Below, piece by piece: positions 29,381 through 51,836 of a stretch of DNA of 64,000 nt. The position numbers were made by a program, and so were the translations under genes. The DNA lies in the NCBI GenBank assembly GCA_003021105.1, contig PXRG01000006.1, forward strand, positions 1 to 64,000, in the 5' to 3' direction. The notes beneath the pieces were generated by a model, which was given only the letters and a program-made list of their open reading frames with translations, ran no database searches and had not been told where the DNA came from. This DNA is from Halobacteriales archaeon QS_1_68_17. GTDB lineage: Archaea > Halobacteriota > Halobacteria > Halobacteriales > Haloarculaceae. Within the stretch, counting starts at the first letter, position 1. Each line of letters opens with the position of its first letter.

Positions 29381-29495
29381 TCATAGTGATTGTTGCGATT
29401 GTTTTCGCGACCACGTCACGTGAACAGTTGGTTCGCGGGCTGAACCCCACGAATTGTGACTTCTCGGCGGTAAAGAGTCGCAACAATCACTATCA
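29381..29495 (-). mobile_element. TIR element copy B (109 bp) on the mutS stop codon
   Basis: Body 29384-29492, with a perfect 16-bp terminal inverted repeat if the neighbouring A/T bases are counted (ATAGTGATTGTTGCGA). TCA flanks both sides (29381-29383 and 29493-29495). The right-hand TCA is the TGA stop of mutS on the minus strand, so insertion at the stop left the protein unchanged. It differs from copy C at about four positions. No coding capacity. Confidence 0.94.
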
Positions 29496-45457: not shown

Positions 45458-45550
45458 ATGACCTGGGCCGACCTGTTCGACCGTGCCGCCCGGTACGGCG
45501 TCGACCGCGAGACGATCAGCGAGCGGCTGGCGGCCCGGCGCGATGACTGA
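45458..45550 (+). CDS. 30-residue protein overlapping the PIN-like gene
   Basis: ATG 45458 encodes MTWADLFDRAARYGVDRETI, ending ERLAARRDD, an acidic amphipathic helix-turn-helix-sized peptide with normal codon bias. Its last codons overlap the ATG of the next gene (8-nt overlap), which implies translational coupling. The frame reads like the small partner that often precedes such PIN-like genes, so it may be conserved rather than chance. Confidence 0.5.
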   Translation: MTWADLFDRAARYGVDRETISERLAARRDD

Positions 45551-46019
45551 TACCGCTCCAGACCCCGCCCGGTTCGTCGCCGACGCGGACGTGCTCGCGG
45601 CGGACCTGCTGGTCGATGGTCCTGCCCGCGAGGCGCTCGACATCGCGCGGGCCCACTCGTGGGTGACGCTGGTCGCCAGCGACCACCTGCTGGACGACGC
45701 CGAGGCCGTCGTCGCGGCGTGTGCCGACCCGGACCTGGCGGCCGACTGGCGGACGAAAGTCGAGCGGCTCCGGGACCCCGTCGACCATCCGGCGGGGGAC
45801 CACCCCGCCCTGGCCTCGGCCTACCGGGGCGAGGCGGTCCACCTCCTGTCCTACGACGCGGCCCTCGCCAGCGCGAAGACCGGCGCGGCTCTCCGGGAGT
45901 ACATGGACGTGAGCGTCCGTCCCCCCGACGCGTTCGTCTGCCTGTTCGATCCCGCCGCCATCTACGAGGTCGCCGTCGGCGGCAGCTACCCCGGTCCCGA
46001 CCGCGACCCGCGCGCGTAG
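45543..46019 (+). CDS. PIN-like domain protein (DUF7384-like)
   Basis: 158 residues. The N-terminus RFVADADVLAADLLVDGPAREALD has the Asp pair pattern of PIN nucleases. AHSWVTLVASDHLLDDAEAVV and HLLSYDAALASAKTG (family strand-4 Asp) continue the fold. The C-terminus is DAFVCLFDPAAIYEVAVGG. It resembles haloarchaeal DUF7384. Whether it is an active nuclease is unclear; acidic positions are partly conserved. Coupled to the 30-residue frame upstream. Element E follows 7 bp after the stop. Confidence 0.75.
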   Translation: MTDTAPDPARFVADADVLAADLLVDGPAREALDIARAHSWVTLVASDHLLDDAEAVVAACADPDLAADWRTKVERLRDPVDHPAGDHPALASAYRGEAVHLLSYDAALASAKTGAALREYMDVSVRPPDAFVCLFDPAAIYEVAVGGSYPGPDRDPRA

Positions 46020-46026
46020 CCACTGC

Positions 46027-46140
46027 TCATACTGGTGGCTGTAAGTACGTAAAAACTCGAATTGAGAATCCAGGCGGAAAGAGTCTGTCTCCGCAGATAG
46101 CAGAGACTGGTGAGTAAAAGAATTACAGCCACCAGTATCA
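46027..46140 (-). mobile_element. TIR element E (108 bp) on the ITPase stop codon
   Basis: Body 46030-46137 with perfect ends TACTGGTGGCTGTAA / TTACAGCCACCAGTA. TCA flanks both sides (46027-46029 and 46138-46140), and the right TCA is the TGA stop of the ITPase gene on the minus strand. The AT-rich interior is unrelated to the other elements. No coding capacity. Confidence 0.92.
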
Positions 46141-47340: not shown

Positions 47341-48579
47341 ATGCTGCCGGGCGTCAGGATCGTCTTCGCACCGTCGGCCGCGGTGCTGGCCGTCACGTTC
47401 GTCGGTGGCGGCGTCGCTCTCGGGACCGTCAGCGGGCTCGTTCCCGGACTGCACGCCAACAACTTCGCGCTGTTTCTGGCGGCCGCCGCGCCGGCCGTGC
47501 CCGGTCCCGGCCGGTTCGTCGGGGCCGCGATGCTCGCAGCCGGCGTCACGCACACCTTCCTCGACGTCGTGCCGGCGCTGGCGCTGGGCGTCCCGGACCC
47601 CGCGATGGCGGCGTCGGCGCTCCCGGGCCACCGGCTCGTGCTCGCGGGCCGGGGCCGCGAGGCGCTCCGGCTGTCGGCGCTCGGCAGCGGGCTGGCCGTC
47701 GTGGCCGCGGCTCCGCTGGCGGTGCCGGTGACGGAACTGATGGCCGCGGTCTATCCGTCGCTCCGCGCGCGGCTGCCGCTGGTGCTTGTCGGCGTCGCCG
47801 TCACGCTCGTGGCGACCGAGCGGACCCGCCGGGCGCGATTCGGCTGTGCAGCCGGGCTGGCCGCCAGCGCGGCCCTCGGGCTGGTCGTGCTCGACCTGCC
47901 CGCGACGGGACTCGTCGACGCGGGCGGCCTGCTCGCGCCGCTTTTCGCCGGCCTGTTCGGCGCGCCGGTGCTGGTCGAGTCCCTCGGCGGCGAGGGCGTC
48001 CCGGCCCAGTCGGACGCTGGCGTGACCAGCCGCCCCCGGGCAGTCGTCGGCGTGGCCGCCGCCGGGACGCTCGCCGGTGCCGCCGTGGGGTATCTCCCCG
48101 GCGTCTCCAGCGCCGTTGCGGCCACCGTGGCCTTGCTCGCCGTCCCCCGCCGGATCGGTGCCCGCGGGTTCGTCGTGACCACGAGCGCGGTCAACACGGC
48201 CAACGCCGTCTTCGCCCTGTTCGCCCTGCTGGAACTGGGCACGCCGCGGACTGGCGTGCTGGTCGCGCTCGACGACGCGGCGGTGCCGCTGTCGCCGCCG
48301 CTGTTGCTCGGCGGCGTCGCGCTGGCGGCCGCGGCCGGCTTCGTCCTCGTCGTGACCGCGGGCGACCGCTACCTCCGGACCGTCGGTCGCCTGGACAACA
48401 CCCGGCTCTCGCTGGCCGTGCTGGCACTGCTCGCGGTCGTCTCGTTCCTGTTTGCCGGCCCCGTCGGCGTCGGCGCGTTCCTGCTGGCGGGGATCGTCGG
48501 CCTCGTGCCCGCCAGGGCGGGCGCGCGCCGCGCGAGTCTCATGGGGGTGCTGATGGGACCGCTGATCGTCGGCGGCTGA
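47341..48579 (+). CDS. TctA/DUF112-type permease
   Basis: 412 residues with about ten to twelve spans, rich in Gly, Ala and Val. The two repeated TctA motifs are visible: GTVSGLVPGLHANNFALFLAA in the first half and GAAVGYLPGVSSAVAATVALL in the second, each with the family G-x-x-P-G loop. It is the large membrane subunit of tripartite tricarboxylate-type transport; TctB- or TctC-like partners are not adjacent. Haloarchaeal members often occur alone, and the substrate is unknown. Confidence 0.85.
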   Translation: MLPGVRIVFAPSAAVLAVTFVGGGVALGTVSGLVPGLHANNFALFLAAAAPAVPGPGRFVGAAMLAAGVTHTFLDVVPALALGVPDPAMAASALPGHRLVLAGRGREALRLSALGSGLAVVAAAPLAVPVTELMAAVYPSLRARLPLVLVGVAVTLVATERTRRARFGCAAGLAASAALGLVVLDLPATGLVDAGGLLAPLFAGLFGAPVLVESLGGEGVPAQSDAGVTSRPRAVVGVAAAGTLAGAAVGYLPGVSSAVAATVALLAVPRRIGARGFVVTTSAVNTANAVFALFALLELGTPRTGVLVALDDAAVPLSPPLLLGGVALAAAAGFVLVVTAGDRYLRTVGRLDNTRLSLAVLALLAVVSFLFAGPVGVGAFLLAGIVGLVPARAGARRASLMGVLMGPLIVGG

Positions 48580-48911
48580 CCACTCGTGGGGATGCTGACG
48601 GGACCGCCGTTCGCCCGCCCGTTCGACGCCCCCTTTCGTCTCCCTCCGGCCGCCGCAGGCCCTCGGGAAGGTCGACCGCGAGTCGTGACATCGTCCGGTT
48701 CCCTTGCTATCTGGACAACAGGTCACCTGAAGGTCAGTCAGGCGCACGTTCGATATCTCTCGAAAACGGCCGGCAAGGGCCGCGAGCGGACGATCGGGCG
48801 AAGTTGTTTCCTATAGATATACGATAAATGAGTTTCCGACCGCGCTAATTGCGGTTGCGATCGGCCGTATGAACTATTATCATTGAAAATAACAGGCTCT
48901 ACAGAGCCAGG
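48580..48911 (+). promoter_or_regulatory. Intergenic region with palindrome before the tandem paralogues
   Basis: About 330 bp without a supported gene; a short frame at 48586-48816 has no coding bias. Just before the next start are an AT-rich box (about 48872-48890, AACTATTATCATTGAAAAT) and a perfect palindrome GGCTCT-AC-AGAGCC at 48895-48908, three bases before ATG 48912. The palindrome could be an operator or an RNA hairpin masking the start. Confidence 0.45.
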
Positions 48912-50279
48912 ATGTACGCCGCCAGGGACGCCGGCGACGAGGACCGCGAACTGCTCGGACGGACCGGGCAGGGCGGGGTGTTCTCGAAGGGGTGGGTCAG
49001 CGAGCAACCGCTCGCGGCGTATCTCGGCGGGGGAGAGACGGCCCGGTTCGTCGTCGCCAACAGGCGGGCGGGCGTCGAGCGCCGGGGCGACGCCGGCGTG
49101 GACCGCTACCGTCCCGGGAGCGGCTACCGCGCGTTCGCGGTCCTGACGGCCAGGCGGGTGCTGTTCGTCGTCGGGGACGGGGCCGACTCCGGCGACTGGT
49201 CGGCGTCGATCCCGTACGCGGAACTCGGGGCGGTCGACCTCCGGAGCGGGGTCTTCCGGCAGGCGTTCCAGTTCTCGACGACATCCGGCGTCATCTGGCG
49301 GTTCCCGGTCCGGGACAGCGACGACCTCGACCGCGCGGCCGCGTACGCGAAGCGCGCGGCGGGGACCTGGGCGCGCGTCGAGTCGCGGTTGAACGAGGCG
49401 AGCAGAGCGGTGGTGGCCGTGGCGGACTACCTCGACCGCGGGGCCCACGACCGGGCGACCGCGGCCCTCGAACGCGCCGACGAGTCGATCGACGACGCCC
49501 GCGGGGCGCTCGCGTCCTTCGACGACGGGATCGCCCCACTGGCCCGTCGCGTCGGGAACGCCGAACAGCGGCTCCGCCGGGCGCGGCTGGACGAACGCGT
49601 CAGCCGGGCGCGACGCCGGATCGAGGCGGGCGAATCGCGCTGGCGCGACCAGGCGTACGACGCGGCCTACGGGGCCTTCGCGGACGCCCACGACCTGTAC
49701 CTGGCGGCCGTCCGGATCGCGTCGGACCTCCCCGGGAATCCGGAGCCGGGCGTCGGGGACCTCCTCGCCGGCCTCGATCGGGTCCAGCGGAAGCTCGGCC
49801 AGCTCCGGCGCGCGCCGTTCCGGCGGGCCCGACAGCTCCACGAGCGCGCCGAGGCGACCGCCGACCCCGAACTGGCCGCCGACCGCTGGGACGAGACCCT
49901 GGAGGCCTACCGGACCGCGCTGGTCCTCGACTGGGGGCGGGACGCGAAACGGTTCGCGGGCGACCGGGAGACCGTCGTGACGGGCGTCGAGCGGGCCGTC
50001 GAGGCCATCGGCCGGACCAGGCGAACACTCGCCGACCGGGCTACAGAGGCGGGCGACCGCCACGCTGCCGCGGGCCGGGAGGAACGCGCCCGCGAGCAGT
50101 ACGCCGCGGCCGCCGATCACCTCCGGCGGGCGCTGGCCGTCGCCCGCGAGTACCGGCCGGACCGGACCGGCGACCTCGAACGGCGGCTGGCGGCCGTCGA
50201 GGCTGAACTCGACCGCCACGACCGGCCCGCGGAGGACGCCGAGGACGAGTCGCCCGGACCGGTCGCCGGCGACGGGTAG
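48912..50279 (+). CDS. Beta domain plus helical-repeat protein, unknown family, tandem paralogue 1
   Basis: 455 acidic residues. About residues 20-160 form a beta-rich domain (ARFVVANRRAGV, GYRAFAVLTARRVLFVVGDGADSG, IPYAELGAVDLRSG, IWRFPV) that reads like a bacterial PH or GRAM-type module. The remaining 290 residues are long helices rich in Ala, Arg, Glu and Asp, with tetratricopeptide-like spacing (RWRDQAYDAAYGAFADAHDLY; AADRWDETLEAYRTALVLDWG). No membrane span is present. It shares order and motifs with the gene at 50488, so the pair arose by duplication. Role unknown. Confidence 0.8.
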   Translation: MYAARDAGDEDRELLGRTGQGGVFSKGWVSEQPLAAYLGGGETARFVVANRRAGVERRGDAGVDRYRPGSGYRAFAVLTARRVLFVVGDGADSGDWSASIPYAELGAVDLRSGVFRQAFQFSTTSGVIWRFPVRDSDDLDRAAAYAKRAAGTWARVESRLNEASRAVVAVADYLDRGAHDRATAALERADESIDDARGALASFDDGIAPLARRVGNAEQRLRRARLDERVSRARRRIEAGESRWRDQAYDAAYGAFADAHDLYLAAVRIASDLPGNPEPGVGDLLAGLDRVQRKLGQLRRAPFRRARQLHERAEATADPELAADRWDETLEAYRTALVLDWGRDAKRFAGDRETVVTGVERAVEAIGRTRRTLADRATEAGDRHAAAGREERAREQYAAAADHLRRALAVAREYRPDRTGDLERRLAAVEAELDRHDRPAEDAEDESPGPVAGDG

Positions 50280-50487
50280 CTGTCGGCCGCCGTATCAGTT
50301 CTTTTCCGTCGACTCGTGCCGTTCGCCGAATCGGCTCCCTTCTGCCGGATCGGCCCGTTCGTCGAATCGGTCCCCTTCCGACTGCTCGTCGACACGAGCG
50401 ACCGGGACTCGATTATCAACATGTGAAACAAACGAACGGTTCTTAGGTTCCGGCCGGATCATAGCCGATACTAGGTGTACACGATGG

Positions 50488-51756
50488 GTGGCGCGTGGGA
50501 AGCCGACCGGGAGGGGACCGGCAGGATCGACCCGGGTGTTCGTCGTTTCGAACCGACGGAAGGGGCTGACTGTCGAACGGGACGGCACATCGACGACTGT
50601 CAGGCCGGACTCGGGGGCGATGGCAGTCGCGGTCGTCACGAGCGCGCGCACGCACTTCGCCGTCGGCGGGGCCGGCGACGAGGGGGACTGGCGCGAGGCG
50701 ATCCACCATGCGGAGGTCGCGGACGTGACGGTCCGCCGGACGCTCGTCCGGACGAACAAGCTGTCGGTGACGACCCGGGACGACGCCACGTACCGGTTCT
50801 ACGTCCCACGCGGGACGGTGCTCTCGAACCTCTCGTCGTATCTCGCCGAGGTCGTCGACTGCTGGGGGACGGTCGAGGGACACCTCTCCCGTGTCGAGGG
50901 CCGCATGGCCGCGATCGAACGGCACCTCGAGTCCGGGGAGATCGAGGACGCCCACGCCACCTACCGGGACCTCGACCAGTCGCTCGAACGGGCGCGCGAC
51001 GCGGCCGACGCGTTCGGCGCGCGGCCGGACGGTCCGATCTCCCGTCGCATCGAGTCGGTGGCGACGGAACTCGATCGCTCGCTGGCGACGTGTCACGCCC
51101 GTCGCGGGGACCAGATCGCCGACCGGGGGGAGAAACACTGGGCGCGCGGCGAGTACGAGCGCGCCCACGAACTGTTCCGGGCCGCCAGGTCGCAGTACGA
51201 GCGGGCACTGTCGATCACGGAGCGACACGACGTCTCGGCTCCGGAGGTCGAGCGCCGGCGGGCGGACCTGCTCGACAGGCTGGACGAACTGGAGGCCGAA
51301 CCGCTCGGCCGGGCCGAGCGCGCCCGCTCGCGGACGATGGCGACCGACGATCCGGGCCGGGCGGTGTCGGCCTGGCGCGAGGCGCTCGACCGGTACCGGC
51401 AGGTGCTCGAACTCGGCTGGGGCGACCCCGGGGCGACCTTCGACGGTGACACCGACGCCCTCCGGTTCCAGATCTCTTGGATCGTCGGGCGACTGCTCGC
51501 GGCCCGCCGGTCGTACGCTGCCGAACTGGTCGGCGACGCCGAGGCCGCCACGCGCGACGACCGCCCCGAGCGGGCCCACCAGTTACTCACCGCGGCCGCC
51601 GAACAACTCGGGGCGGCCCGCGACCTCTCACGGGAGTACCGGACCGGCGACCCGGCGGAGGTCGAACGGGAGATCAGGACAATCGAACGAAAGCTCGACC
51701 GAACCGACCGGCGGGCCTGGACGCCCGACTTGCACAGGACCCCGGCCGCCGAGTGA
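50488..51756 (+). CDS. Tandem paralogue 2 of the beta/helical-repeat protein, 5' end possibly shifted
   Basis: 422 residues. It repeats the layout of its neighbour: RVFVVSNRRKGLTVERDG, VAVVTSARTHFAVGGAGDEG, YRFYVPRG, then long helices ending with REALDRYRQVLELGWG and AARDLSREYR, both shared with paralogue 1. The first ~30 residues of paralogue 1 have no counterpart. The GTG-start leader (ARGKPTGRGPAGS) is basic, whereas an ATG at 50484 in another frame gives an acidic leader (MGGAWEADREGTGRID), so a one-base shift may have altered the start. The TGA stop is the site of element F. Confidence 0.78.
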   Translation: MARGKPTGRGPAGSTRVFVVSNRRKGLTVERDGTSTTVRPDSGAMAVAVVTSARTHFAVGGAGDEGDWREAIHHAEVADVTVRRTLVRTNKLSVTTRDDATYRFYVPRGTVLSNLSSYLAEVVDCWGTVEGHLSRVEGRMAAIERHLESGEIEDAHATYRDLDQSLERARDAADAFGARPDGPISRRIESVATELDRSLATCHARRGDQIADRGEKHWARGEYERAHELFRAARSQYERALSITERHDVSAPEVERRRADLLDRLDELEAEPLGRAERARSRTMATDDPGRAVSAWREALDRYRQVLELGWGDPGATFDGDTDALRFQISWIVGRLLAARRSYAAELVGDAEAATRDDRPERAHQLLTAAAEQLGAARDLSREYRTGDPAEVEREIRTIERKLDRTDRRAWTPDLHRTPAAE

Positions 51757-51836
51757 TACTGTCGGCTATACTCCCTCGAAGGGTTTCGGCACCCGCGGTG
51801 CCGAATATCTTCACGACGGTATAGCCGACAGTATGA
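51754..51836 (+). mobile_element. TIR element F (77 bp) on the paralogue 2 stop codon
   Basis: Body 51757-51833, with perfect ends TACTGTCGGCTATA and TATAGCCGACAGTA. TGA flanks both sides (51754-51756, 51834-51836); the left copy is the stop codon. An inner hairpin (GGCACCCGCGGTGCC) is present. In RNA it would form a long stem directly after the gene. Confidence 0.92.

Follow-up and report, generated by a model that had tools for sequence, protein, structure and literature searches.

Two adjacent paralogous genes, p1 and p2, in a haloarchaeal metagenome-assembled genome (MAG; G000, 2.07 Mb, 60.8% complete) belong to a protein family that none of the libraries used names at full length. Of 102 salactin loci, at least 46, spread over six genera, have a family member immediately downstream of the salactin gene in the same orientation. 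Salactin is a dynamically unstable archaeal actin that forms filaments. A preliminary description of the window (the whole 64-kb stretch of DNA analyzed here) had proposed that the pair may represent an undescribed system. This holds for the family and its salactin link, for which the papers searched gave no description, but not for the PH and TPR-like folds or for salactin, all of which are already known.

Tandem paralogs, predicted folds, and family range

The pair and its predicted domains are placed as follows.
48912..50279, plus strand: p1, a 455-aa full-length paralog with an N-terminal LLxxTGxGG segment, a PH-type beta domain, and four long helical hairpins
49041..49310, plus strand: PH-type beta domain of p1 (residues 44-133; AlphaFold strands, PDB matches, bPH_3)
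49326..50222, plus strand: helical array of p1 (residues 139-437; TPR-like hairpins; AlphaFold, Foldseek)
50488..51756, plus strand: p2, the second paralog, without the N-terminal segment (start uncertain, GTG at 50488)
50530..50808, plus strand: PH-type beta domain of p2 (residues 15-107; AlphaFold strands)

The two genes are neighbors on one strand and their products are 32% identical over 410 aa (BLASTP, E = 3e-40), which bears out the earlier claim of adjacent tandem paralogs. Both look coding from their GC content by codon position (0.81/0.56/0.93 in p1 and 0.74/0.55/0.89 in p2). The relatives of the window's genome include Halorientalis, which is assigned to the Haloarculaceae, and Halosimplex; the tandem pair is present in Halorientalis too and is therefore not new to the window. 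The second copy had been described as losing its 5′ end. It does lack the N-terminal segment of approximately 30 residues that p1 has, as well as an in-frame ATG (the in-frame start is a GTG, the one ATG close by, at 50484, does not share its frame, and the upstream frame stays open with no ATG), but the PH fold of p2 is complete in the model. The LLxxTGxGG motif is missing from the Halorientalis second copies too.

Phylogenetic analysis grouped p1 with the first copies of Halorientalis (moderate fork support, 87/72). All salactin-adjacent members lie in the same portion of the tree as p1, and p1 falls among these members, several of the forks there being weak. Both p1 and p2 sit on long branches. 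Strict orthology of p2 with the Halorientalis second copy was set aside, as the tree does not group them, with the grouping itself not rejected (AU P = 0.158). The dN/dS ratios of the family copies in Halorientalis (0.24 to 0.35) indicate that purifying selection acts on both copies.

AlphaFold models computed from alignments of 15 (p1) and 14 (p2) homologs reached mean pLDDT values of 86.7 and 89.6, respectively, and predicted the same fold in both proteins, in agreement with the beta domain and helical tail that they had been said to share. The element order is identical, with nine strands followed by about nine long helices arranged as four TPR-like hairpins. In the p1 model, the strands (residues 44-133) and the subsequent helix (139-175) form a beta barrel closed by a C-terminal helix, as expected of a PH fold. 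Foldseek comparison with the PDB matched this beta part to isolated eukaryotic PH domains of USP37, SSRP1, and GRK2 (target-normalized TM of about 0.56 to 0.62) and the helical part to TPR superhelices. The Foldseek E-values are modest (best, 9e-4), so the matches back the fold, not homology; a sequence search of the PDB gave no useful match. The p1 hairpins exceed the length of the canonical 34-residue TPR in the AlphaFold model, the Pfam matches to TPR repeats stay below cutoff in p1 (TPR_12, E = 0.7) and p2 (TPR_2, E = 0.11), and one relative passes the cutoff for TPR_11.

The pair had also been said to have no recognizable family, which is true of the full-length proteins but not of the PH part. 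The latter reaches Pfam bPH_3 (PF14470) at 15.9 bits in p1, below the curated cutoff of 23 bits, while orthologs exceed it (24.7 bits at locus L061 and 27.6 bits at L149, the Halorientalis orthologs passing); p2 has no Pfam match to bPH_3. The bacterial and archaeal bPH_3 proteins have the same beta domain as the p1/p2 family. However, PF14470 spans the PH domain only, whereas the helical arm, the LLxxTGxGG N terminus, and the salactin neighborhood belong to the p1/p2 family.

Of 148 Haloarculaceae genomes, 100 matched a profile of 20 family members (E = 1e-8), a few of them through weak, short matches; a scan of genome contigs using p1 alone gave no match, and alignment A1 was too diverged for a pattern search. 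In a class-wide sample of 244 genomes, only the Haloarculaceae yielded the full architecture, and matches elsewhere were largely confined to the PH part; salactin in other haloarchaea thus manages without full-length members. Genomes carry several family paralogs each, at unrelated places next to L10e, KsgA, or SUF genes (gene names read by eye). Many long members, salactin-adjacent ones included, carry a C-terminal Mrr_cat domain (PF04471, E down to 1.4e-14), which Pfam does not find in p1 or p2. Read by eye in the members inspected, this Mrr-like domain has no lysine at the QxK position of the D...(E/Q)xK motif and appears to be without the nuclease motif. The same N-terminal LLxxTGxGG segment and PH module also head haloarchaeal proteins of 720 to 1840 aa (L166-L174) that contain HHH and other domains and as many as 15 HNH_repeat units.

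The salactin neighborhood and the absence of salactin from the window locus

Salactin recurs directly upstream of the family gene in relatives, recognized by PF25229 (E = 4.5e-188) and above the cutoff of NCBIfam NF053533, and is not homologous to the family. The gap between the two genes measures 116 to 578 nt across the at least 46 loci, mostly 350 to 500 nt. At least four further loci, all of one genus, carry the two genes convergently, approximately 3 to 5 kb apart. The outer flanks change from genus to genus (Halorientalis has CorA/TctA and a methyltransferase, Halosimplex has trp genes, and other genes occur elsewhere), and salactin and the family gene remain together even in some genera where FlaD/E has been lost, inverted, or set apart. 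The neighborhood survey thus found neighbors that are nonrandom in relatives, and the proposed scaffold pair survives the random-neighbor check that the earlier description had set for it. The frequency with which a family member comes next after salactin makes the filament part of the earlier "membrane- or filament-associated scaffold" a fair lead.

Among complete Haloarculaceae genomes in a first survey, both genes were present in 14, salactin only in 6, the family only in 0, and neither in 7 (Fisher P = 0.0019, uncorrected for relatedness). Adjacency has been lost in many genomes without visible compensation, and salactin occurs without the family gene as well; at five loci (L177-L181), neither a family gene nor a family remnant was detected beside salactin.

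The gap between salactin and the family gene holds a small antisense gene of about 43 to 70 codons with a conserved tryptophan-rich C terminus (e.g., L061, L066, L130-L132, and L141). It has no Pfam match, its promoter is conserved, it comes with a CAGACG/CGTCTG-like inverted sequence, and its dN/dS ratios in Halorientalis are 0.29 to 0.68. The gap, of approximately 380 nt, also carries a promoter-like box of its own before the family gene, which argues against a single transcript of salactin and the family gene. A ACTCATTA-like box is the conserved upstream item when p1 is compared with 18 relatives, and it precedes the ATG by 39 nt in the window as it does in Halorientalis.
48873..48882, plus strand: promoter-like box ACTATTATCA, 39 nt before the p1 ATG; ACTCATTATCA in Halorientalis

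In many genomes, the arrangement extends into a wider cassette, in which CheW and ParA genes are divergent from the FlaD/E-like gene, salactin, the small gene, and the family gene; this cassette may link salactin to chemotaxis or archaellum positioning. Loci with salactin, a FlaD/E-like gene, and a divergent ParA gene include L066, L067, L134, L136-L138, and L140-L143, and in most of them ParA overlaps a CheW gene with an N-terminal extension. No partners of salactin are named in the papers searched. Salactin has been implicated in DNA partitioning, and its neighborhood in Halobacterium is reported to show poor synteny and to give no functional lead (PMC10746226). Unlike that of Halobacterium, the Haloarculaceae neighborhood is informative: through it, salactin is tied to ParA, CheW, and FlaD/E-like genes and gains a candidate partner that is concrete and structurally defined.

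The window differs from this arrangement at the following features.
47341..48579, plus strand: TctA-family gene, adjoining the small-gene remnant here (deletion scar) and standing before CorA, FlaD/E-like, salactin, and p1-like genes in Halorientalis
48539..48691, minus strand: truncated small-gene remnant (local score, 76); the similarity ends near 48583, beside the TctA stop codon
48726..48743, no strand: remnant of the small gene's conserved promoter sequence, CCTGAAGGTCAGTCAGGC against CCTAAA..CAGTCAGAC

The Halorientalis order is TctA, CorA, FlaD/E, salactin, small gene, first copy, methyltransferase, and second copy, while that of the window is TctA, small-gene remnant, p1, and p2. The methyltransferase between the two Halorientalis copies is type IIG-like (L061:6990-9164; same place in L129-L133) and is not in the window. 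The gene upstream of p1 is thus TctA instead of salactin, and salactin was not found at the window locus or in the recovered 61% of the genome. p1 nevertheless shares its clade, the promoter box, the TctA and trp synteny, and the small-gene remnant with salactin-adjacent members. The local score of the remnant against the Halorientalis small protein (76) compares with a mean of 42 and a maximum of 61 for 393 other window pieces. A single deletion that took out CorA, FlaD/E, and salactin along with the final codons of the small gene is the simplest reading, although the MAG may instead be misassembled here.

Comparable losses were found in three sister MAGs, of which G016 (L062) retains only a salactin tail (17 aligned residues, 76% identical), G027 (L063) has salactin in two pieces, and G007 (L065) has a broken FlaD/E and no salactin. 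The site also lacks salactin in Halorientalis sp. G119, which has a lower-scoring copy at a different location. The p1 ortholog is open and near full length in all four genomes. Salactin appears to have been lost repeatedly in this group (G016, G027, and G007); these three and the window's own genome are incomplete MAGs, and salactin absence applies to their loci and recovered sequence. At the window locus the pair has outlived salactin and must by now either have another partner or be in early decay.

Proposed role and competing explanations

A cytoplasmic adaptor working with salactin is, tentatively, the most likely role of a p1-type member, a rating that follows from the position behind salactin and the PH-plus-arm architecture. 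The PH module would dock on a partner, either the salactin filament or the membrane or cell pole, and the rigid helical arm would hold cargo, plausibly chromosomal DNA. The Mrr-like C-terminal domain of many relatives, seemingly nuclease dead, may help to hold that cargo. The main points against this adaptor role are that salactin and the family gene each occur alone and that a separate promoter-like box lies in the gap; the paralogs at unrelated loci and the restriction of full-length members to the Haloarculaceae also count against it. The strongest rival, which is possible but less likely, is a generic PH/TPR adaptor that is functionally unconnected to salactin and stays next to it passively, as a carryover from one ancestral arrangement. 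Paralogs at unrelated loci (L10e, KsgA, and SUF), the uncompensated loss of adjacency in many genomes, and the independent loss of salactin and the family gene all favor it. However, the adjacency persists in six genera though both outer flanks change, and the intervening small gene and promoter box persist too.

A DNA-linked or genome defense protein, in which the PH module carries DNA-acting domains, is unlikely. The C-terminal Mrr_cat of many members, the methyltransferase between the two Halorientalis copies, and the large HNH_repeat and HHH proteins headed by the same N-terminal module point in that direction. However, no PADLOC model matches p1 or p2 (the one match in L129 involves the Mrr part only), the Mrr domain appears to lack the catalytic QxK, and the loci, flanked by trp and housekeeping genes, appear chromosomal and syntenic. 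Least likely of all the readings is that p1 and p2 are decaying, nonfunctional leftovers after salactin loss. The locus has indeed lost salactin, FlaD/E, and the end of the small gene, p2 is without its N-terminal segment and in-frame ATG, and the branches of both genes are long; yet the reading frames of both remain long and open, their codon structure is haloarchaeal, and their predicted folds are complete, and in the three sister MAGs whose salactin loci have decayed, the p1 orthologs are all intact.

ParR/AlfB-type adaptors (ParMRC) are encoded beside an actin-like filament gene and link the filament to cargo DNA. By analogy, the proposed working mode of the p1/p2 family would resemble that of these adaptors of bacterial plasmid actin segregation, although library searches found no sequence relation and p1 has no Mrr-like domain. 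An extension of the salactin adaptor role, which we regard as improbable, would make the family the missing cargo adaptor of salactin in the Haloarculaceae. Its PH module would sit on the filament or pole, followed by the helical arm and, in many members, a DNA-binding pseudo-nuclease tail; the whole would be an archaeal counterpart of ParMRC-type segregation wired to the ParA/CheW/FlaD-E polar motility cassette. The overlap of the ParA-type ATPase gene with an N-terminally extended CheW gene in the cassette of relatives recalls the polar chemotaxis anchoring by ParC-ParP in Vibrio (PMC5706961). The likeness is one of layout only, and ParA and CheW are not at the window locus.

Palindrome and flanking elements

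Specific control of the pair had been proposed through a perfect palindrome before p1 and a helix-turn-helix regulator beside an inverted-repeat element at the end of p2.
48895..48908, no strand: palindrome GGCTCT-AC-AGAGCC, 6-bp arms with a 2-nt spacer
51756..51834, no strand: element F, an inverted-repeat element of approximately 80 bp with 16-bp arms, between convergent gene ends

The palindrome was rejected as an operator, since inverted repeats of its shape are at chance level (51 in the 64-kb window) and it is absent upstream of the start codon in 18 aligned relatives, where nothing palindromic is kept at its position. No homolog of the downstream HTH (DUF7344) gene is present among the genes called at 58 related loci, so neither its link to the pair nor a part as dedicated regulator was upheld. 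Element F is a real inverted repeat but is not specific to p1 and p2, and it was discarded as a part of the pair. It is one copy of a dispersed inverted-repeat element of 79 to 115 bp with arms like ATACNGNNGGNTGTAA, often at gene ends. Other copies of this type lie at 46029-46138 and 29383-29493 of the window, at loci L062, L075, L080, and L096, and elsewhere in the window's genome. Positions 45543-46019 of the window encode a DUF7384 protein (Pfam E = 8.5e-73), a member of an uncharacterized haloarchaeal family.
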